Assembly: GCA_016875875.1 (NCBI GenBank) | Contig: VGOP01000002.1 | Location: forward strand, 62,001 to 126,000 | DNA length: 64,000 nucleotides | Origin: Chloroflexota bacterium | GTDB taxonomy: Bacteria > Chloroflexota > Dehalococcoidia > GIF9 > UBA5629 | Reading direction: 5' to 3' | Shown here: positions 2,370-53,434 of the stretch, piece by piece | Position numbering within the stretch: the first letter of the stretch is position 1 | Layout of the letters: each line of letters opens with the position of its first letter | Position numbers and translations under genes: made by a program | The notes under the pieces: model-generated | What the model was told of the DNA's origin: nothing | What the model saw: the letters and a program-made list of their open reading frames with translations, nothing else | The model's database searches: none

Positions 2370-4571
2370 ATGTTTGAGTCTGACAAATGTGAAATTGGGG
2401 GCAGGTTGCTAACTATTGAGACAGGCAAGTTAGCCACGCAAGCTGACAGCGCTGTTACTGTTCGCTACGGTGATACCGTGGTATTGGTCACTGTCTGTGT
2501 TACTGATGAGCCCCGCGGAAATGGTGATTTCGTCCATCTGACTATAGATTATGAGGAAAGGCATTATGCTGTTGGCAAGATTCCCGGGAGCTTCATAAGA
2601 CGAGAGGGACGCCCCAGTCAAGAGGCAACCCTAGCCGGACGACTAACCGATCGCAGTCTACGTCCACTTTTTGACAAGAATTTGCATAACGATGTTCAGA
2701 TTGTGGTTACTGTTCTTTCCACTGACCAGGAAAATGACCCTGATATACTAGCGGTCAGCGGAGCTTCAGCTGCGATGACTCTTTCTTCAATCCCGTTCTA
2801 TGGTCCGGTAGGTGCGGTGCGTGTCGGCTATCTCGACGGCAACCTTGTGTTAAATCCAACATTGCCTCAGCTGAACGATAGCCTGTTGGACCTTGTTGTT
2901 GTCAGCACCAGAGAAGCCATAGTCATGGTGGAAGCAGGAGCCAAGGAAGTTTCTGAGGAGATAGTTCTAGAAGCGATTAAGTTTGGGCACGAGGCGAATC
3001 AGGAGATTATAAGATTCCAGGAACGTTTGCGGCAGGTTTATGGCAAGCCTAAGATGGAGATGAAGGCGGATGGTATTGCTCCCGAACTAATAGCTGCTGT
3101 CTCTTCTGAGTTTGGAACCAAGTTGACTCAGGCCGTTAGTCATATGGAACGAGCCGAACGCGAAAAGGCAATTGAGGCGGTTAAACAGGAAGCCATCGAG
3201 AAGCTAAGGGAGCCATTTCCTGAAGCTGATATTAATGCTGCTCTCGAAGACCAAATTAAAAAGGCAGCTAGAGCGAGCATTTTGGAAAAGAAACAGCACC
3301 TTGATGGCCGCCAACCCAAGGAGGTACGTCACATTACTGGTGAAGTCGGTTTCCTGCCGCGTACTCATGGCTCAGGGTTGTTCAGCAGAGGGCTCACTCA
3401 GGTATTGACCATAACCACTTTAGGTTCTCTACGTCAAGAGCAATTGATTGATGGCTTGGGATTGGAGGCGACAAAGCGTTTCATGCACCACTATAACTTT
3501 CCACCCTTTTCTACTGGTGAGGTAAAGCGCCTTGGGTCGCCAGGACGACGTGAAATAGGACATGGTGCTCTGGCGGAAAGATCTCTGGCCCCGGTGATAC
3601 CCAGCGAAAACGAGTTTTCTTATACGATACGATTGGTTTCTGAGGTACTTAGCTCTAATGGCAGCACTTCTATGGCGAGTGTCTGCAGCTCAACTCTAGC
3701 TTTAATGGATGCTGGTGTGCCCATCAAGGCTCCTGTGGCGGGGATAGCTATGGGGCTAGTTACCAGTGAGGATAACAACTATGTCATCCTTACTGATATT
3801 GAGGGCATGGAGGATGCCTACGGTGATATGGACTTCAAGGTGGCCGGTACCAGCCAGGGGATTACGGCTCTCCAATTGGACATCAAGCTTAGAGGCATAA
3901 GATATGAGATTTTGGCTGAAGCGATAAAGCAGGCGCGTGAGGCATATAGGGAAATACTTGGTAAGCTGAGGCAGACTATCAGCACCAGCCGGCTTGAACT
4001 TAGCCCTTATGCGCCCAGAATGTATAAGATGACTATTGACCCGAGCAAGATCGGTGCCGTGATTGGACCTGGGGGCAAGACCATTCGGTCCATAATTGAT
4101 GAGGCGAAGGTGACCATAGATGTTGATAACGATGGGACGGTGATTATCGGCTCACCCAGTCAGGAAGCAGCTCAGAAAGCAATCGAAAAAATAGAGAGCC
4201 TGACTCGAGATGTGGAAGTTGGCGGTGTTTATACTGGAAAGGTGACTCGTTTGACAAACTTTGGCGCTTTTGTCGAGATTCTGCCTGGAAAAGAAGGATT
4301 AGTTCATATCAGTGAGCTGGCTGATTATCACGTGGACAAGGTGGAGGATATTGTGAAGGTAGGCGATGAGATTATGGTTAAAGTTATCGAAATTGACCAT
4401 CTGGGCAGGGTCAATCTGTCACGACGGGCAGTTTTTTCAGATTTGTCACAAGTTCCAGGAGCTAAAGTTGCGGATTCTACTGCAACAGGTCGTCCTCCCC
4501 ATAGACCGCAAAGAAACCGCCCTGTTGCTCAGCAGCGGGATAGCCGAGATAGCCGCCGTCGGCGTTACTAA
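2370..4571 (+). CDS. pnp: Polyribonucleotide nucleotidyltransferase (PNPase)
   Basis: 3'-5' phosphorolytic exoribonuclease acting as a trimer in mRNA decay. The 733 residues contain a first RNase PH domain (about 10-145), an alpha-helical linker domain, a second catalytic RNase PH domain from about 319 (with the DFKVAGTSQGITALQLD segment near 486), a KH domain with IGPGGKTI (about 554-610), and an S1 domain starting near 617 (TGKVTRLTNFGAFVE). It ends in a basic Arg/Pro tail. The ATG at 2370 follows GGGTGG. The length is normal. The stop directly precedes the dapB leader. Confidence 0.97.
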   Translation: MFESDKCEIGGRLLTIETGKLATQADSAVTVRYGDTVVLVTVCVTDEPRGNGDFVHLTIDYEERHYAVGKIPGSFIRREGRPSQEATLAGRLTDRSLRPLFDKNLHNDVQIVVTVLSTDQENDPDILAVSGASAAMTLSSIPFYGPVGAVRVGYLDGNLVLNPTLPQLNDSLLDLVVVSTREAIVMVEAGAKEVSEEIVLEAIKFGHEANQEIIRFQERLRQVYGKPKMEMKADGIAPELIAAVSSEFGTKLTQAVSHMERAEREKAIEAVKQEAIEKLREPFPEADINAALEDQIKKAARASILEKKQHLDGRQPKEVRHITGEVGFLPRTHGSGLFSRGLTQVLTITTLGSLRQEQLIDGLGLEATKRFMHHYNFPPFSTGEVKRLGSPGRREIGHGALAERSLAPVIPSENEFSYTIRLVSEVLSSNGSTSMASVCSSTLALMDAGVPIKAPVAGIAMGLVTSEDNNYVILTDIEGMEDAYGDMDFKVAGTSQGITALQLDIKLRGIRYEILAEAIKQAREAYREILGKLRQTISTSRLELSPYAPRMYKMTIDPSKIGAVIGPGGKTIRSIIDEAKVTIDVDNDGTVIIGSPSQEAAQKAIEKIESLTRDVEVGGVYTGKVTRLTNFGAFVEILPGKEGLVHISELADYHVDKVEDIVKVGDEIMVKVIEIDHLGRVNLSRRAVFSDLSQVPGAKVADSTATGRPPHRPQRNRPVAQQRDSRDSRRRRY

Positions 4572-4622
4572 GTGGCGTTAAAAAGCCTTTGCTTTCATGA
4601 AAAAGCATTGAGGGGGTGGGAA

Positions 4623-5441
4623 ATGGAACCGATAACAGTGTTGTTGCATGGAGCCTTAGGCAAGATGGGTAGGGAGGCCACGGCTGCGATATGTCGAGAC
4701 CCTGAACTAGAATTGGTTGGTGGTGTTGACATTAAGGCGACTCAAGAGCATCTGACTTTGCCTGATGGTTTAAAGAAGGTGCCTCTTTCTTCCAATCTGA
4801 ACTCGCTTCTTGAAATATGCCATCCAAAAGTGCTGCTAGATTTCACCATTGCTGAAGCCGCAATATCGGCGTCTCGTATTGCCCTTAAACGGGGTATTAA
4901 CGTTGTTATAGGCACATCGGGACTTTCAGACGACAATCTCAAAGAGATTGCCCAACTGTCAAAAGCCAACAAGGTAGGTGCCGTAGTAGCCCCTAACTTT
5001 ACCATCGGGGCAGCAGTGCTATTAAATGCGGTTAAGGCGGCAGCCAAGTTCTTTGACTACGTTGATATAATTGAAATGCATCATCACGAGAAAGCTGATG
5101 CACCATCGGGGACTGCACTGGCTACCGCAAAGGCTATGCTGCAATCGCGAGGCAAGCCCTTCCTTTATTCAAAAACCAAAAAAGAAACACTCAGCGGCAC
5201 TCGTGGTGGGGAGGTTGACGGCATAACCATCCATAGCGTAAGATTACCTGGATTTGTTGCCAGTCAGGAGGTTGTGTTTGGAGGGCAGGGGCAAACGCTG
5301 AGCGTTCGTCATGATACTATAGGGCGGGAGTGTTATATGCCAGGCGTTATTATGGCAATAAAAGAAGTAGTGAATCGACGAGGATTGGTTTACGGATTGG
5401 ATACCCTGTTGAATTTAAGGGGGAGCGATGAAGGCATATAA
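4623..5441 (+). CDS. dapB: 4-hydroxy-tetrahydrodipicolinate reductase
   Basis: NAD(P)H-dependent reductase of the diaminopimelate/lysine pathway. The start at ATG 4623 follows GAGGGGGTGGG and places the nucleotide-binding GALGKMGRE near the N-terminus. An upstream in-frame start at 4572 would add 17 unrelated residues and abut the pnp stop. The family signature EMHHHEKADAPSGTA is near residue 149 and supplies the catalytic His and Lys. The product is 272 residues. The end overlaps the asd start by 14 bases, implying translational coupling with the next pathway gene. Confidence 0.96.
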   Translation: MEPITVLLHGALGKMGREATAAICRDPELELVGGVDIKATQEHLTLPDGLKKVPLSSNLNSLLEICHPKVLLDFTIAEAAISASRIALKRGINVVIGTSGLSDDNLKEIAQLSKANKVGAVVAPNFTIGAAVLLNAVKAAAKFFDYVDIIEMHHHEKADAPSGTALATAKAMLQSRGKPFLYSKTKKETLSGTRGGEVDGITIHSVRLPGFVASQEVVFGGQGQTLSVRHDTIGRECYMPGVIMAIKEVVNRRGLVYGLDTLLNLRGSDEGI

Positions 5442-6453
5442 TGTGGCTATTGTCGGTGCTACCGGGATGGTCGGGCAGGAGTTCATTAAGGTTCTGCAGC
5501 AGCGCAATTTTCCCGTGGCATCGGTGAATCTCTATGCCTCCGACCGGTCAGCAGGCAAGAGACTTTATGTCGGTCATAAAGAGCTCGAGGTTAAGGAGAC
5601 CAGCCCCGAGTCTTTTCATAACATTGATATTGCCCTTTTTTCGGCTGGTTCTGAGATTAGTCGCTATTTTTCACCAATTGCTGCTAAGTCTGGTGCTTTA
5701 GTCGTTGACAATAGCGCAGCTTTCAGGATGGAGCCAAAAGTACCTCTGGTTGTAACTGAGATAAACCCTGAAGACATAAGGTTGCACGAAGGGATTATTG
5801 CCAATCCGAATTGTTCTACTATTCAAATGGTAGTGGCGCTTTATCCACTGCATAAAGTTAACCCAATAAAACGGATCGTCGTCTCTACATATCAGTCGGT
5901 GTCGGGCACTGGCGCAGCAGCCATGGAAGAATTGACTACCCAAGCTAAGTTAGTTTTGGAGGGACAAAATGTCGTTCCTCATGTCTATCCTCACCAAATT
6001 GGATTCAATTTACTACCAGAGATAGATGTTTTCTTGGATAATGGCTATACTAAAGAAGAGTGGAAGATGGTGGAAGAGACTCGCAAGATAATGCATGCTC
6101 CTGATATAGCCATTTCAGCAACCTGTGTCAGAGTGCCTGTTTTTATTGGGCATAGTGAGGCAGTAAATATCGAATTTACTGACCCTATGAGCCCTGAAGA
6201 GGCAAGACATATATTGGCTCAGGCTCCTGGCGTCAAGGTGCTTGATGACCCTAATGTTAGCCTTTATCCACAGCCCTGGCTGGCTGTGGGTTCAGACGAT
6301 GTTTATGTGGGGCGCATACGGGCTGATGCCTCTCAGCCCAAGGGATTGGTAATGTGGGTTGTGGCTGATAATTTACGTAAAGGTGCTGCCCTCAATGCTG
6401 TCCAGATTGCTGAAGAAGCAGCACGGCGGGGCTGGGTTAAGGGTGGGAAATAG
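5428..6453 (+). CDS. asd: Aspartate-semialdehyde dehydrogenase
   Basis: Makes aspartate 4-semialdehyde, the branch-point for lysine, threonine and methionine. It has an N-terminal Rossmann motif GATGMVGQ (residues 10-17), catalytic Cys129 in NPNCST, and a substrate-binding SGTGAAAMEEL region. At 341 residues it is of typical length. It sits between dapB and dapA in one transcription unit, so the window carries three consecutive steps of the lysine branch. Aspartokinase is not in the window. Confidence 0.96.
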   Translation: MKAYNVAIVGATGMVGQEFIKVLQQRNFPVASVNLYASDRSAGKRLYVGHKELEVKETSPESFHNIDIALFSAGSEISRYFSPIAAKSGALVVDNSAAFRMEPKVPLVVTEINPEDIRLHEGIIANPNCSTIQMVVALYPLHKVNPIKRIVVSTYQSVSGTGAAAMEELTTQAKLVLEGQNVVPHVYPHQIGFNLLPEIDVFLDNGYTKEEWKMVEETRKIMHAPDIAISATCVRVPVFIGHSEAVNIEFTDPMSPEEARHILAQAPGVKVLDDPNVSLYPQPWLAVGSDDVYVGRIRADASQPKGLVMWVVADNLRKGAALNAVQIAEEAARRGWVKGGK

Positions 6454-6475
6454 ACTACATATACGGAGGCCGATG

Positions 6476-7378
6476 ATGAAAAAGTTCGGTCGCTTGCTCA
6501 CAGCAATGGTTACTCCATTTGATGCTAAAGGTAAAGTTGATTACACACAGGCCAAAAAGCTGGCAAAAGCCCTGCTCGATTCAGGCAGTGATGGACTCGT
6601 TGTCTCGGGTACTACCGGGGAATGTCCGACTCTTACGCGTGAGGAAAAGCTACGCCTTTTTGCCGAAGTCAAGTCAGCCGTTGGTAACCGGGGCACAGTC
6701 ATAGCTGGCACCGGTAATTACAGCACAGCAGAGAGCATAGAGCTGACCAAAGAGGCGGAGAAGGCTGGAGTCGATGGCTGTCTTTTGGTTGTTCCATATT
6801 ATAATCGTCCTACTCAGGATGGTTTGTACGAGCATTTTAAGGCTATCGCTGGGGTAACAAGTTTACCATGCATCCTCTACAATGTTCCGTCACGCACTGT
6901 TACCAGCTTGGCTGCTGAAACCTGCGTCAGGCTTAGCCAGATTGATAATATCGTTGGAGTGAAGGAAGCTAGTGCTAATCTTGAGCAGATAGCCAGGATT
7001 ATACAAGGAGCTAAGAAGGGTTTCCTGGTTTATAGTGGTAATGATGGTGACACATTTCCCATACTATGTCTGGGTGGCTATGGGGTTATCAGCGTGATTT
7101 CGCATTTAGTCGGGCTTCAATTCAAACAGATGGTGGTTGATTATTTTCAGGGCAATATCGAAAAGGCAGCAGCCGTACATCGTAATTTGTTACCTTTGGT
7201 TAATGCCATGTTTGTTGTTGCCAATCCGATACCAGTCAAATATGCCTTGAATTACTTAGGCTTTTTCGTAGGTAAGCCCCGCTTGCCACTCACTGAGCCT
7301 GACGAGAAATCCAAGGCTGTCATTGAGCAGACTTTGAAGAGCTACAAGATTGACTTGCTAATAGCTGTTAGGGCTTAA
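6476..7378 (+). CDS. dapA: 4-hydroxy-tetrahydrodipicolinate synthase
   Basis: Condenses pyruvate with aspartate semialdehyde through a lysine Schiff base. The start is set at the second of two adjacent ATGs (6476), six bases after GGAGG; the one at 6473 is too close. The 300-residue TIM barrel carries the GTTGECPTL phosphate/pyruvate loop, Tyr135 in YNVPSRT, and Schiff-base Lys163 in GVKEAS. It ends the rpsO-to-dapA operon and is convergent with the downstream gene. No intrinsic terminator is evident between them. Confidence 0.96.
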   Translation: MKKFGRLLTAMVTPFDAKGKVDYTQAKKLAKALLDSGSDGLVVSGTTGECPTLTREEKLRLFAEVKSAVGNRGTVIAGTGNYSTAESIELTKEAEKAGVDGCLLVVPYYNRPTQDGLYEHFKAIAGVTSLPCILYNVPSRTVTSLAAETCVRLSQIDNIVGVKEASANLEQIARIIQGAKKGFLVYSGNDGDTFPILCLGGYGVISVISHLVGLQFKQMVVDYFQGNIEKAAAVHRNLLPLVNAMFVVANPIPVKYALNYLGFFVGKPRLPLTEPDEKSKAVIEQTLKSYKIDLLIAVRA

Positions 7379-46966: not shown

Positions 46967-49225
46967 CTATTTATTATTTCGTTTCCTTCGACTGCTCACT
47001 ACCAAAGCTACCAACACGACTCCTAATAATAGGGGGCTAGCATCTGATAGTAAACCTGAACTGCTGCTGGCCTTAGCACAGCCCATTCCCTTACCCGGGG
47101 TTGGGGATGTTGGCTCAGGCGCTGGCGTAGTTTCTGGTGCTGGCTCGGCTTCACCTTCAGATAACGTTCCCTTTATAGCGCTGCTTAATGGGTTACCTTT
47201 GCTGTCTGCTCCGCCGATGACGTATATTGATTCAGGTGAGGCAGCGGCTGCGGCGACAAACATGACATTTCGCCCCTGGTCCATCTGCGTCGCTTCGCCC
47301 CATTGGTCGGCCTCGGAGTTATATACCTGGACAGATGGTTCGGCGTGTCCACCGATAATAAATACGTTTACGTTTGTGTTTGTGCTTACGCGTACGCTCT
47401 CTGCTACGGCGGTGCCACCATGGCCGCCACACTTCTTTGGCATATCAGTATTTGTCTCCCATGTGTTGTCAGGCGGGCTCATTGATGCACACATTGTGGC
47501 TCCTGTGGATTCAACGCCGCCTATGACCACTATTTTGTTATTGACCACAGAGGCGACGGACATACTTCTGGCTATGGGCATGTCAGCCTTAGGCGTGAAA
47601 GTTAAGTTCACCGGGTCAAACTCATATACGTTCTTGTAATAGTATGTGGAACGGATAAACAGTTGCGGTTTGCTGCAACCTCCGAAGAGGTATATCTTTT
47701 CTCCGTAGGTCGCTGCGGACATACCCGCAGCAGGGAAAGGTAATTTGGCGATTTTCGCTTGCCAGGTATCAGAAGCGATGTCATAGACATCTACTGTGTC
47801 GACTACCTTCAGCTCGGTGTCCGCTCCACCGAAGGTATAGATTTTGCCCTTATACGCAGCAGCGCCGAAGTTGAATCTGCCCTCCGGCAATGGTGCTTTG
47901 CTGGTCCACTTGTTAGCTACGGGGTCATAGGCTTCAACTAGCTTACCGGTATATGGTAGAGGGTCCTCTAATCCGCCGATAGTGTAGATGATGTTGTTGA
48001 TAGTTATGGCAGCGCCGTAACAGCGCGGTTTGGGTAGTGGGGCTACGGGAGTCCAATGTATTTTTATCTTGGGTTCCGATGGTGTTTGTGTAAAGTCAAG
48101 GGTGGGTGGTGTTGCTGGTGGTGTCCCTCGTTCGGCGCTGGCTAACGGTTCACCCTGCCCTTCTGGATCGCCCTTGTTATCACGCCCTCCCATCACGTAT
48201 AGCTTGCCATCGACAGCAGCAACGAAGGCGCCCTCACGAGGAGTGAGCATGCTGGTTCCAGTTACCCACGTTTGCCACTGGTCGCTATATACATCAACCA
48301 CGGAAGACGTGCTCACCTGCTCATCTCTGCCTCCCATCAGAAAGACCATGTCGTTCGCAGTAGTCCCGAACCAAATGCCGCGTTCCCAGATGACGCATTC
48401 TATGCGGCTCCAGGAGTCTGTGGCGGGGTCGTATAGCTGAGCATTGCCGTTGCCGAAGCCGGAGGAACCGCCAAATACCAGTATGCGGTTTTTGAATACT
48501 ACGGCTGAGGTTCTAGATCTTGGAGTAGGCATGGTTGCTTTCGAGGTGAACTTGCCAGTGGCAGGGTCAAACTCGTAGCAGGCGTTGTAAAAATACTGAG
48601 CAGAGAATAAGTCGGTGCTGGCACTACCGCCAAAAAGATAGATTTTATCGCCATAAGCGACAGCCGACATATCTACCGCTGGTTTAGGCAGCTTGGCTAT
48701 TCCGGCTTTCCACGTGTTCGTGGCGGCATCATAGACATCTACGGTATCCTTGACTTCCTGGTATACATTGGCGCCACCGAATGTGTAAATCTTGCCCTTG
48801 TAGGCCGCAGCGGCGAGGTATACCCTACCCTCTGATTTGCGGGCTTCGGCGCTTGGTAGATAGGGTAGAGGAGCCTTAGTAGTCCATTTATCAGTCTTCG
48901 GGTTGTAAGCCTCTACTATCGCGCCAGTAACTATGCCTGGCATCTTAATCGGCATATTGCCTCCCGAAGGAGTCACCATCATAAACTCGAAGTCGCCAGG
49001 AGGCTCAATTCCGCCTATTGTGTAGATGATGCCATTAATCACCGCGGTTGCCCCGGAATGACGCGGCTTTGACATAGGTGAAATTTGTTCCCATTGGATG
49101 GAAACAGCAGGAGCGCCATTTGTTGTGGCAGCTGCGACTGGCTGCACCGCAGAACTAAGTGGAACCAGTGATAAGGCAGTCGCCACCAAGACGATTTTTA
49201 AGCATAATTTTCCGATTCTTTTCAT
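46967..49225 (-). CDS. Double kelch-repeat surface protein with C-terminal anchor
   Basis: A 752-residue exported protein. Signal peptide about 1-32. Two homologous halves follow: one starts IQWEQISPMSKPRHSGATAV and the second IHWTPVAPLPKPRCYGAAIT, each with repeated GKIYTFGGA and VDVYDxxTxTW kelch blades. A Pro/Thr-rich linker and a C-terminal GMGCAKASSSSG-(15 residues)-hydrophobic helix-SRRKRNNK form an anchor resembling sorting signals of the Synerg/Myxo-CTERM kind, with a single Cys. Strong promoter just upstream. Carbohydrate or protein binding is the usual kelch role; the ligand is unknown. Confidence 0.9.
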   Translation of the reverse strand: MKRIGKLCLKIVLVATALSLVPLSSAVQPVAAATTNGAPAVSIQWEQISPMSKPRHSGATAVINGIIYTIGGIEPPGDFEFMMVTPSGGNMPIKMPGIVTGAIVEAYNPKTDKWTTKAPLPYLPSAEARKSEGRVYLAAAAYKGKIYTFGGANVYQEVKDTVDVYDAATNTWKAGIAKLPKPAVDMSAVAYGDKIYLFGGSASTDLFSAQYFYNACYEFDPATGKFTSKATMPTPRSRTSAVVFKNRILVFGGSSGFGNGNAQLYDPATDSWSRIECVIWERGIWFGTTANDMVFLMGGRDEQVSTSSVVDVYSDQWQTWVTGTSMLTPREGAFVAAVDGKLYVMGGRDNKGDPEGQGEPLASAERGTPPATPPTLDFTQTPSEPKIKIHWTPVAPLPKPRCYGAAITINNIIYTIGGLEDPLPYTGKLVEAYDPVANKWTSKAPLPEGRFNFGAAAYKGKIYTFGGADTELKVVDTVDVYDIASDTWQAKIAKLPFPAAGMSAATYGEKIYLFGGCSKPQLFIRSTYYYKNVYEFDPVNLTFTPKADMPIARSMSVASVVNNKIVVIGGVESTGATMCASMSPPDNTWETNTDMPKKCGGHGGTAVAESVRVSTNTNVNVFIIGGHAEPSVQVYNSEADQWGEATQMDQGRNVMFVAAAAASPESIYVIGGADSKGNPLSSAIKGTLSEGEAEPAPETTPAPEPTSPTPGKGMGCAKASSSSGLLSDASPLLLGVVLVALVVSSRRKRNNK

Positions 49226-49277: not shown

Positions 49278-49440
49278 TAGGTTTTATGGAGAGCGCAAAG
49301 CCTAAAACTTTCGCCTTCTCACAATACTTTCTCTATCCTTAGACGGGTAACAATTCTTCCCTTTGCTTGCCTTCTCTGATAGAATTCTCACTGTTTATTC
49401 TAATTCTTTTTTGTCATTAGGTGCGATGTTTCACCAGGTT

Positions 49441-50904
49441 ATGAAGCGATTACCAGTTGTACTGGCTGTGGTGCTGTGCCTTCAGCTTGGCTTTTCAGGT
49501 ACAGCCAGCTCAGCTGTGGAGAGTCCTGATAGGGTCAAGGAGTTAAATTTCGTTTTTCTTCATGGTGCCGCTGGAAATCCCTGCGGTCCACAGTTTCTGG
49601 CTGATGCCATGCTAGAGCAGGTATCTTACTATATTTCTGAATATGAGCAGGCCAATCCCGGCATTAAGGTTAAAGTTGATGTCCTGAACAGATGTTATCC
49701 GAACGATGTGGATATCGAAACCTGGGCAAACAACATTGCTGACAGTATCGATAATCACTTCGGTGATAGGGGAAATCTGGTATTGATAGGACATAGTATG
49801 GGCGGGAAGGCGGCACTTTATGCGGTAGCCAAGAATATAGATAATCTAGTTGACAGAGTGGCGCTGGTAGTTACAATAAATTGCCCGGTTAAGAATCTGA
49901 ATAGGTATCAGCTTATTGGTGGTGGGCCATTTGTTGACTATTGTCGGGCTGGGTGGCTGCTACGCCCTGACCATGGGATTTGCGTTTCAGTAGGTGAATA
50001 TGATAGCTCTGAAGATGGCAAATGGGTAGGACAGAACAAGCATTGGTTAGCTTTCATATCGGGTGAAAACGCACCATTGAGCCCGCAATTTGATTATGGT
50101 GGCTTTGACCCTTACCCGCGTGATATGGATGATGGTGCTCTACCGATATCAGCTCAATACTCTGACGGCGCTGATGTAATCTACTACGGCGAGCATGGCC
50201 ATAGCGACTTCCACGTTATAGAAGGGGTGGCTGATTTTATTGCCGGGGAGATTTTAAAATACATATTCGGTGGGGTTATAGAGTGCTCGGTTTTGGCTAG
50301 GGATGGTGGCTTGCAGCATAATGCTGGCTTGCTGTTGGGAACAGACTACTGGCAGGACATCATTGGTGATGTTCTTGGCATTAGCAGCCGACTACGGCAT
50401 TGGAACCAGTCCTATATTAAGTGGCAGGAATGGGAGGACATATTGGAGTATTACCCTCCGACTTATGAGAAAGACCTGAGGAGCCGTTACGAAGTCAGCC
50501 TAAAGAGGTCAGCAGCGATTTTTACCAACATAGAGGAGATGCGTTGGCTTAATCCTGATAATCCGGAAGACTGCCGCCTTTATCTGCGAACCAGAGCTAC
50601 CCCGGGAAATTATATACAGGTGGACTGGAAAATATATCGGCAGGGGTTGTTGCCCGAGGGAACGAGGCGCGACCATTATGAAATCGAGGTAGTAGCTGGC
50701 ACGCCTTTGGCTGAAGTCTATCAGGCATCGTGGGCGACCGATAATTCGCGTGACTTGAGGGTGCAGGTGTGGTCACGGGCTGAAAAACCCTTCCGCTGGT
50801 TCGAGGCTAAGTGGAGGGTTTATTACAAGGAAAGTCGGCAGAGGAAAGTTATTGGTGAGATAAGTGCATTTCGTTCAGGCTCTGAGCACGGCTCGAGCTT
50901 TTAA
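49441..50904 (+). CDS. Secreted alpha/beta hydrolase (lipase-like)
   Basis: About 488 residues from the ATG at 49441, which gives a classical signal peptide (MKRLPVVLAVVLCLQLGF, cleavage near ASSA). ATGs at 49363 and 49426 are alternatives; ribosome sites are weak for all. FLHGAAGNPCG is the oxyanion loop and LIGHSMGGKAAL holds the nucleophile Ser. ISAQYSDGADVIYYGEHGHSDFH near mid-protein carries the likely Asp and His. A C-terminal beta-rich domain of about 180 residues follows the hydrolase part. It is divergent from the kelch gene with a 215-base interval. Confidence 0.8.
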   Translation: MKRLPVVLAVVLCLQLGFSGTASSAVESPDRVKELNFVFLHGAAGNPCGPQFLADAMLEQVSYYISEYEQANPGIKVKVDVLNRCYPNDVDIETWANNIADSIDNHFGDRGNLVLIGHSMGGKAALYAVAKNIDNLVDRVALVVTINCPVKNLNRYQLIGGGPFVDYCRAGWLLRPDHGICVSVGEYDSSEDGKWVGQNKHWLAFISGENAPLSPQFDYGGFDPYPRDMDDGALPISAQYSDGADVIYYGEHGHSDFHVIEGVADFIAGEILKYIFGGVIECSVLARDGGLQHNAGLLLGTDYWQDIIGDVLGISSRLRHWNQSYIKWQEWEDILEYYPPTYEKDLRSRYEVSLKRSAAIFTNIEEMRWLNPDNPEDCRLYLRTRATPGNYIQVDWKIYRQGLLPEGTRRDHYEIEVVAGTPLAEVYQASWATDNSRDLRVQVWSRAEKPFRWFEAKWRVYYKESRQRKVIGEISAFRSGSEHGSSF

Positions 50905-51981
50905 AAAGTGAAGTAGGCACTCCCGCGTGACCATGCCGACCAACCTGCCCTCTTGTACTACCGGTATCTGGTCTATGTCGTAGTCATCCATCTGCTCGAG
51001 CAGGTCTACCGCTGGCTGGTTAGGCTGAGCTGTCTTGAGCCTATCGGCGGGCGTCATTAGGTCACTGATGTGGGTCGAGTCCCAGTGCTTTTCTGGTATC
51101 TGTATATCGTTCAGGGTTACGATTCCCTGCAGCTTGCCGTCCTCAATGACTACAAAGCAGTGTTGGCCGGAGTTGATTATATATTCTCGGACCAATCCAA
51201 AAGTAAGTTGTTGTTTTATTGGGGTGTAGGCATCGGTCATCATATCATATGCTGTCATGCCGCGGAGAGCGTCGCGTACCAGCGCCTGGCGCCGGCTGGC
51301 TGTGGCGGCATCTTCCAGGAACCAGCCGAACACAATCATGAGTACGCCGGCAAACCAATTACCGGGGAGGATAATTGCTATAATACCGGCAGCGATGAAC
51401 AGGAAACCTATGACTCGCCCGGTCATGGTGGCAATTCTCGTTGCCCGGCTGTAATCCTTCATTGTAAGCTGCAGGATGACTCGTAGAACTCTGCCTCCAT
51501 CTAGGGGAAAAGCCGGAATAAGGTTAAACAGAGCTATCATAAAGTTGAAAAAGAATAGCAGTTGCATGAATTCACCAGGCATAGAGGTTGTAATACCGGC
51601 TAGAGTGTACGAGAGTGCGTAAAATATGCCGGCTATCACAAAGCTGGCCAATAGGCCGGTTACAGACACTAGTATCTCGGGAATCGGCCGGGTGTCCTGT
51701 TCAGTTATCCGAGGTGTCCCACCGAATACGTAGAGGGTGGTGCTCTTTACAGGCATCCCTAGCTTGATAGCTACGGCATTTTGGGCTAGGGCACGGGCAA
51801 ACATGGAGGCGAGAAAAAGGAAGCTAGCAGCTATCCCGTGTGTTATGTTCAGCCATAGCGGGTAGAATCCGTAGAATTGCTGCGCCAGTACTGCTGTTAT
51901 TAGAATTAGGGCAGGTAACCAGGTGTAGTGCAAACGAACTGGAATTCCAAAGACCTCGCCCAGATTTATATAACGCGGCAT
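50875..51981 (-). CDS. Site-2 protease-like membrane protein with CBS pair, lacking HExxH
   Basis: A 368-residue M50-type protein with about six transmembrane segments and a C-terminal CBS pair (about 240-360). The catalytic zinc motif is absent: where relatives have HELSH, this protein has R63-ALA-Q67 (in SMFARALAQNAVAIKLG). The second motif NLIPAFPLDGGR (Asp161) is intact. It is probably a pseudoprotease that binds substrates or senses adenine nucleotides through the CBS domains. The 3' end overlaps that of the secreted hydrolase (convergent). Start ATG 51981 after AAGGAGA. Confidence 0.88.
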   Translation of the reverse strand: MPRYINLGEVFGIPVRLHYTWLPALILITAVLAQQFYGFYPLWLNITHGIAASFLFLASMFARALAQNAVAIKLGMPVKSTTLYVFGGTPRITEQDTRPIPEILVSVTGLLASFVIAGIFYALSYTLAGITTSMPGEFMQLLFFFNFMIALFNLIPAFPLDGGRVLRVILQLTMKDYSRATRIATMTGRVIGFLFIAAGIIAIILPGNWFAGVLMIVFGWFLEDAATASRRQALVRDALRGMTAYDMMTDAYTPIKQQLTFGLVREYIINSGQHCFVVIEDGKLQGIVTLNDIQIPEKHWDSTHISDLMTPADRLKTAQPNQPAVDLLEQMDDYDIDQIPVVQEGRLVGMVTRECLLHFLKARAVLRA

Positions 51982-52132: not shown

Positions 52133-53434
52133 ATGTGCGATACTATTGTTGCTCTCGGCTCGGCTACCAAAGATGGCGCCACTCTATTTGGCAAGAACAG
52201 TGACCGGGAACCTGACGAAGTTCAGAACATAAAAATTTACCCTCGCCAGAAGCATAAAAAGGGTGAAAAGGTAAAATGCACCTATCTGACCATACCGCAA
52301 GTTTCTGAAACTGCCAGGGTAATGCTCTGTCAGCCGTTCTGGATGTTCGGAGCTGAGATGGGCGCCAACGAGTATGGCGTGGCTATAGGCAATGAAGCTC
52401 TGTTCACGAGAGAGAAACCAGCCCCCACCGGGCTTACGGGCATGGATTTATTGCGCTTGGCTCTGGAACGAAGCCGAACTGCCAAACAGGCGTTGGAGAC
52501 CATAATTGAGCTATTGGAGAAATATGGGCAAGGCGGCAACTGTGGCTACCGACAAAATTTGCCCTACATGAACAGCTTTCTGATTGCAGGCCATCAAGAG
52601 GCCTACGTACTGGAAACGGTAAAATCATGGTGGGCATGGAAACGGGTCAAAGATTTCTGGAGCATATCGAATATAATTTCTCTGGAGGAGGAATTTGATG
52701 CCTGCTCACCCGGATTACTCGAGAACGCTGTTAAGAAAGGCTATTGCAAAAGCGAAGCTGACTTTAATTTCCGCAAATGCTATTCCGACAAAATAATAAC
52801 GTGGGGTGCCAAGGGAGCACCGCGTCAGGCACGTTCCCGTGAAATGCTTTTACAGAAGAAAGGTGTGCTGACCACGGCGGATTTTATGGCTCTTCTCCGT
52901 GACCACGGAGGTCATGTTGGTTGGACTCCAGATAAGTCCGGCGGGACTATTTGCATGCATGCAGCCGATAAACTGATACGTCGCAGTCAGTCAGTGTGTT
53001 CTATGGTGGCGAAGTTAGGGAAGAAAGCGCAATTCTACTACACCACTGGTGCTGCCGATCCATGTATGAGCCCTTATTATCCGGTTTTCTTTCCTGATAC
53101 GTTGAATCCTACCGGTTATCTGGATGGGGAGGCAAGTTATGATGCGAAGTCTTTTTGGTGGGAATGCGAAAAGCTGCATCGCCAGGCATTGTGGCATTTC
53201 ACCGCTGCCCTGAATGCTATTCAGCCCCAGATAAAAAAGTATGAAAAGGAGATGATTTCTTCGGTGGAAAACGGTCGGCTACCGCTGAATCAGGACAATG
53301 TCGATAAATACTTTGCCAAAGCCAGGGCTATGGTCAGAAATTGGGGTGCCAAGCTGGATAGGCTGCCGGTGACAAAACCGAGGTGGCTGTTCCGACGCTA
53401 TTGGCGGAGTTACAATAAGCTCAATGGATTATAA
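52133..53434 (+). CDS. C69-family dipeptidase/secernin-like Ntn hydrolase
   Basis: A 433-residue N-terminal-nucleophile hydrolase. The start MCDTIVALGSATKDG places the nucleophile Cys at residue 2, to be exposed after Met removal. FGKNSDREPDEVQ and the GANEYGVAIGNEAL segments are family motifs. No signal peptide, so cytosolic like secernins. Excellent AAGGAGG site. The stop is immediately followed by the GTG of a GNAT gene, forming a two-gene unit. Likely hydrolyses amide bonds in small peptides; substrate unknown. Confidence 0.9.
   Translation: MCDTIVALGSATKDGATLFGKNSDREPDEVQNIKIYPRQKHKKGEKVKCTYLTIPQVSETARVMLCQPFWMFGAEMGANEYGVAIGNEALFTREKPAPTGLTGMDLLRLALERSRTAKQALETIIELLEKYGQGGNCGYRQNLPYMNSFLIAGHQEAYVLETVKSWWAWKRVKDFWSISNIISLEEEFDACSPGLLENAVKKGYCKSEADFNFRKCYSDKIITWGAKGAPRQARSREMLLQKKGVLTTADFMALLRDHGGHVGWTPDKSGGTICMHAADKLIRRSQSVCSMVAKLGKKAQFYYTTGAADPCMSPYYPVFFPDTLNPTGYLDGEASYDAKSFWWECEKLHRQALWHFTAALNAIQPQIKKYEKEMISSVENGRLPLNQDNVDKYFAKARAMVRNWGAKLDRLPVTKPRWLFRRYWRSYNKLNGL

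Follow-up and report, generated by a model that had tools for sequence, protein, structure and literature searches.

What becomes of a site-2 protease (S2P) in which the zinc-binding motif is gone and the membrane fold is kept? This question is raised by a gene at 50875–51981 on the minus strand of the window, the 64,000-nucleotide stretch of a Chloroflexota genome that was analyzed here. The gene starts with an ATG at 51981, ends at 50875, contains no internal stop and encodes a protein of 368 amino acids (P0001). The initial annotation had given the same coordinates and open frame with the strand unstated, and our translation agrees with it. It had also placed R63-A-L-A-Q67 at the position of HExxH (codons 63–67, 51781–51795, minus strand); a further 147 S2P-CBS sequences from the class read HExxH at the aligned position, and the full length of P0001 contains no displaced HExxH. 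A sequencing error at the site was excluded, as an independently assembled genome of the same genus (G002) also reads RALAQ.

The remaining parts of an S2P were found in place. Pfam matched Peptidase_M50 (PF02163) with 46 bits against a cut-off of 27.2, the match being confined to residues 136–194, and CBS (PF00571) with 59 bits in two stretches. A profile of the clade described below matched the crystal structure of the Methanocaldococcus enzyme mjS2P (3b4r) over the whole membrane domain (E 8e-30), and in this alignment the Arg column sits on HELGH of mjS2P. The profile also matched the SpoIVFB structure 8vjl (E 1e-10) and the CBS part of the site-2 protease 5g5r. By its membrane domain (PF02163, 3b4r), P0001 is thus a homologue of S2P and of family M50B, and its place in the clade tree agrees with this. 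The third zinc-ligand position is retained as Asp161 (codon 51499–51501, minus strand) within NLIPAFPLDGG, an NxxPxxPxDGG motif aligned with PMDGGR of mjS2P. The C-terminal CBS pair that marks the CBS-type subgroup spans residues ~241–368 (50878–51261, minus strand), with the PF00571 match at residues 305–360. Retention of the Asp161 motif and the paired CBS domains, as originally described, was borne out, and the HExxH position, with R63-A-L-A-Q67, departs from an active M50B protease. AlphaFold models of P0001 and of the neighboring hydrolase described below, made from three-row alignments, had pLDDT values of 41.6 and 33.1, too low for structural conclusions.

Our protein searches took in an order sample of 84 genomes and a sample of 393 from the class, presumably Dehalococcoidia, and the motif was read in every fetched S2P-CBS sequence that covered the site. 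The class-level searches yielded 15 members of a clade to which P0001 belongs and which we call Arg-type. Outside this clade, HExxH was kept in 147 of 147 S2P-CBS sequences (for example, HELGH at locus L220 and HELAH at L232). The orthologue in G002 is 77% identical to P0001, and five further family members read RELVH, RELAH, RETAC, RALAQ and RELAR. An RxLxQ change in homologues, which the initial annotation had proposed to look for, proved to be only partly the rule: Arg was present in all 14 members covering the site, and RALAQ itself in only three. In a quick maximum-likelihood tree built without the motif columns, the 15 Arg-type sequences formed one side of a single branch (SH-aLRT 99), and the closest sequence outside was that of G082, with the motif HELAH. 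The Arg-type clade has a single origin by this tree, in which support might be inflated by long branches; the common linkage to a hydrolase, described below, backs the same conclusion independently of the tree. The clade is nested in the S2P-CBS group of the window's order and has members in four families outside the order, in whose hosts the active S2P-CBS copies group elsewhere in the tree. Joint horizontal transfer of the gene pair, or an old duplication followed by many losses, would both fit this distribution.

The 14 motif readings were RALAQ (three members), REFVF (two), and RELAH, RELVH, RETAC, RELAR, REIVR, REFII, REIIL, REHII and RQFQL (one each); the sequence from G012 was left out of this count because a contig end cuts the gene before the site. 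Arg at the position of the first His was thus invariant. The Glu position was Ala in three members and Gln in one, the second His was missing in 12, with residue 67 being Q, H, R, C, I, L or F, and Asp161 was retained in 12 of the 15, the others having Ala, Gly or Glu. Since Arg is fixed where Glu, the second His and Asp vary, the order of loss would most simply be His-to-Arg first, with erosion of the remaining motif afterwards. R63 was present in 100% of the clade and in 0% of 145 active-type sequences, in which His is fixed, and it was the sole complete swap in the protein between these two groups (the G184 site, being in another frame, was read outside the alignment). With a mean pairwise identity of 45%, only 30 of 364 columns were invariant in the clade. 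Two invariant Arg residues were among them, R63 and the C-terminal R363, and R63 was the only clade-distinguishing invariant basic residue within a membrane-domain helix. This invariance suggests a selected role for R63. A salt bridge from R63 to D161 as a substitute for zinc was rejected, because three Arg-bearing members have lost or changed D161, which is therefore not a constant partner; every full-length member has an acidic residue at position 64, 161 or both, in numbers too small to carry meaning. Two further observations concern individual members. The most eroded site of the clade belongs to G011 (L045, 6806–7912), where all three zinc-ligand positions are gone (RETAC, and PPLAMG for PLDGG) and the frame is still intact. 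The Asn of NxxPxxPxDGG, fixed in active-type sequences, is replaced by His, as a second change, in those hydrolase-linked members that do not belong to the order of the window (L133, L134, L136, L135, L109 at 4267–5379 and L110 at 5412–6623).

Such a protein could still be an active enzyme with an altered site, holding a residual metal through Asp161 and a His at position 67 or using another hydrolytic chemistry. The motif RExxH and the Asp are both kept in two members (G018 and G026), and D161 survives in most of the clade. However, the first His is missing throughout, the Glu, second His and Asp positions are each replaced in some members, and the clade alignment contained no alternative conserved set of catalytic residues, so that we regard activity of this kind as very improbable. 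The opposite possibility, a decaying pseudogene or an assembly artefact, was judged by whole-protein dN/dS (Nei-Gojobori), with synonymous divergence of 0.35–1.1, which makes the ratios usable. The pseudoprotease ratios were 0.22 (G000, the window's genome, against G002), 0.17 (G000/G026), 0.15 (G026/G002) and 0.10 (G325/G295), compared with 0.12 (G000/G002) and 0.09 (G325/G295) for the active paralogue. The Arg-type S2P is under purifying selection. One member, that of G184 (L135, contig C92, 2380–3518), is broken into two frames; the assembly is 66% complete, and the break may represent real decay or an assembly error. Against this single case stand 13 genomes with full-length frames, dN/dS of 0.10–0.23 and the same motif in independent genomes; general decay is hardly credible, and for the window gene it is refuted by the recurrence of its motif in other genomes and by the dN/dS. 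The initial reading of P0001 as a probable pseudoprotease is thereby strongly supported by the single-origin clade, the invariant His-to-Arg replacement, the loss of Glu and the second His in several lineages, and purifying selection. Likewise, there is strong support for the clade as a whole being a conserved pseudoprotease, predicted from its motif to be catalytically dead.

The main new finding lies beyond the interval that had been annotated and had gone unnoticed there. On the plus strand, at 49363–50904, is a gene convergent with the pseudoprotease gene, overlapping its 3′ end by 30 bp. Its product (P0002) is a putative exported alpha/beta serine hydrolase with a signal sequence at residues ~27–51 and a GHSMGG nucleophile elbow (G143-H-S145-M-G147). 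S145, D256/D257 and H280 were invariant in 14 relatives, leaving the putative triad intact; either D256 or D257 would be the catalytic acid. The elbow, together with weak PGAP1 and Abhydrolase_6 Pfam matches in all 14 members, is shared with that superfamily, from which P0002 differs by a conserved C-terminal part of its own and by scores under the curated cut-offs. No close relative of P0002 was found among solved structures. Other genes near the locus were a large exported kelch-repeat protein with nine Kelch_1 stretches (46967–49225, minus strand), which is probably surface-anchored and has at its C-terminus a Pro/Thr-rich linker followed by a hydrophobic tail with RRKRNNK as its last residues, and a C69-family peptidase/AAT-like gene (52133–53434, plus strand), divergent from and just upstream of the pseudoprotease gene. 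The latter also adjoins the pseudoprotease in G002, and not in other clade members.

In 14 genomes, which represent six families (f1, f4, f81, f77, f75 and f49), the hydrolase and the Arg-type S2P were arranged tail-to-tail, with spacing from an overlap to ~200 bp. No hydrolase homologue was found next to active-type S2P genes among the loci examined. When neighbors were clustered, only the pseudoprotease and hydrolase families recurred, every other family being present at three loci or fewer. In the class sample, the hydrolase was found in 11 of 393 genomes, all 11 of which had an Arg-type S2P; in the order sample, it was found in 10 of 84, nine of which had one. No Arg-type S2P without the hydrolase was found in a class survey made up mostly of S2P matches no weaker than E 1e-60, and none of a 400-genome phylum sample had the hydrolase outside the class. 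In G027 the two genes lie on different contigs and both are retained. The gene trees of the two proteins had well-supported groups in common, and their pairwise distances correlated at 0.89, a value confounded by species relatedness. Linkage and co-occurrence of the pair are near-obligate.

From this linkage and co-occurrence we infer that the Arg-type S2P has probably been repurposed as a membrane partner or regulator of the exported hydrolase, through a physical mechanism that can be proposed from the sequences. Some observations count against this reading: the genes are convergent and so are not co-transcribed, and G028 has hydrolase fragments at contig ends and no pseudoprotease that we could find, in an assembly that is 81% complete. 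Two other functions were weighed against it. The initial annotation had suggested an inhibitor of an active paralogue; a protein of this kind would compete for substrates or dimerize with the HELxH copy through the CBS domains. An intact S2P-CBS paralogue is indeed encoded in the window's genome (HELMH, 38% identity, G000:C1:77562–78659), along with an RseP-type M50 protein (HEFGH) on contig C11, and most pseudoprotease hosts carry an intact S2P-CBS. In G422 the two genes even share a strand, the active copy being ~2 kb upstream. However, G422 is the only genome in which an active copy was found to adjoin the pseudoprotease, the constant neighbor being the exported hydrolase; the active copies of different hosts belong to different clades; and in G319, which is 93% complete, no CBS-type S2P was found besides the pseudoprotease, which is accompanied by an RseP-type M50. 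The suggestion is weakened by these data, and we consider paralogue inhibition unlikely, a poor general explanation that is less likely than a role as hydrolase partner. The G422 locus itself (L109, contig C42) carries the HELAH S2P-CBS gene at 1076–2227 and the Arg-type gene at 4267–5379, separated by genes that, by inspection of their translations, are FAD-dependent reductase-like and GreA-like.

The other function would be that of a nucleotide-sensing membrane scaffold with a job unrelated to the hydrolase, the linkage being due to chance or joint horizontal transfer. The congruent gene trees are as expected from joint transfer, and the ribose-type site of the first CBS domain is kept. This possibility is quite unlikely, because no other neighbor is kept at more than three loci and each gene is almost always accompanied by the other, even after the two were unlinked in G027.

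Thus, the role of partner or regulator of the hydrolase is the reading we favor, and a course of events can be proposed for it. A single replacement of the first zinc-binding His by Arg would have ended proteolysis, after which the catalytic Glu and the second His would have eroded in several lineages with the Arg remaining fixed. The old substrate cleft, with Arg in the place of the metal, might then hold a membrane segment uncut, such as the signal or anchor of the hydrolase, or that enzyme's client or lipid. The signal of the hydrolase as the docking segment was not supported by a crude test: conservation is lower in the signal (34%) than in the mature part (61%), and most members have AxA-like ends, so that it looks like ordinary cleaved export. 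With such a signal, the two proteins would have to meet within the membrane or through it, which is a weak point of the proposal. The cytosolic CBS pair may couple holding to the nucleotide state, which would control whether the hydrolase is exported, retained in the membrane or active, much as inactive rhomboids hold clients. In SpoIVFB, the CBS domain is found below the membrane-embedded part, facing the cytoplasm of the mother cell. This position, together with the pattern kept in the first CBS site (G286 and T289 in all clade members, D292 in 73%), makes a nucleotide-sensing role of the CBS pair, as raised by the initial annotation, plausible. The zinc ligands of SpoIVFB are H43, H47 and D137, and its catalytic residue is E44; the E44Q variant binds Pro-sigmaK without cutting it, and Pro-sigmaK threads beside the HExxH motif (PMC11486902). 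A dead S2P could by analogy hold a membrane-entering segment uncut.

Rhomboid-fold pseudoproteases have been well studied in animals. The Arg-type proteins share with mjS2P (3B4R) and Bacillus SpoIVFB (MEROPS M50B) the membrane domain, NxxPxxPxDGG and C-terminal CBS, and differ from them by Arg for the first zinc His, with P0001 also devoid of the Glu and second His. In the open-access literature, which leaves most subscription journals outside its scope, we found no description of a bacterial S2P pseudoprotease such as this clade. The plant chloroplast protein EGY3 is likewise an S2P homologue without HExxH, for which a non-proteolytic part in stabilizing other proteins has been reported (PMC10978774); it is eukaryotic, no linked hydrolase is described for it, and its origin is presumed to be independent of the Arg-type clade. 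iRhoms and other inactive rhomboid-like proteins are dead intramembrane protease folds put to use as holders or escorts of clients (PMC6451368, PMC3149277). The Arg-type clade resembles them in the reuse of an inactive fold, for clients that are proposed here, whereas iRhoms are eukaryotic, have an unrelated serine-protease fold and lack CBS domains. BofA and SpoIVFA inhibit SpoIVFB, with a membrane partner occupying the S2P cleft (PMC9042235); in that system the inhibitor is BofA, whereas here the S2P fold itself would be the inactive partner.

In its most specific form, which we put forward tentatively as a doubtful possibility, the proposal would be a bacterial two-gene module. One His-to-Arg swap would have made its S2P a holder that responds to nucleotides, does not cleave, and serves to escort or gate the hydrolase exported as its dedicated partner; the pair would be a prokaryotic S2P-fold counterpart of iRhom-ADAM17. 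The extant clade displays a series of events, from an active sister through replacement of the first His to erosion of the remaining site. The hydrolase is a concrete candidate client, and with it the role of an inactive S2P fold becomes testable with one gene pair.
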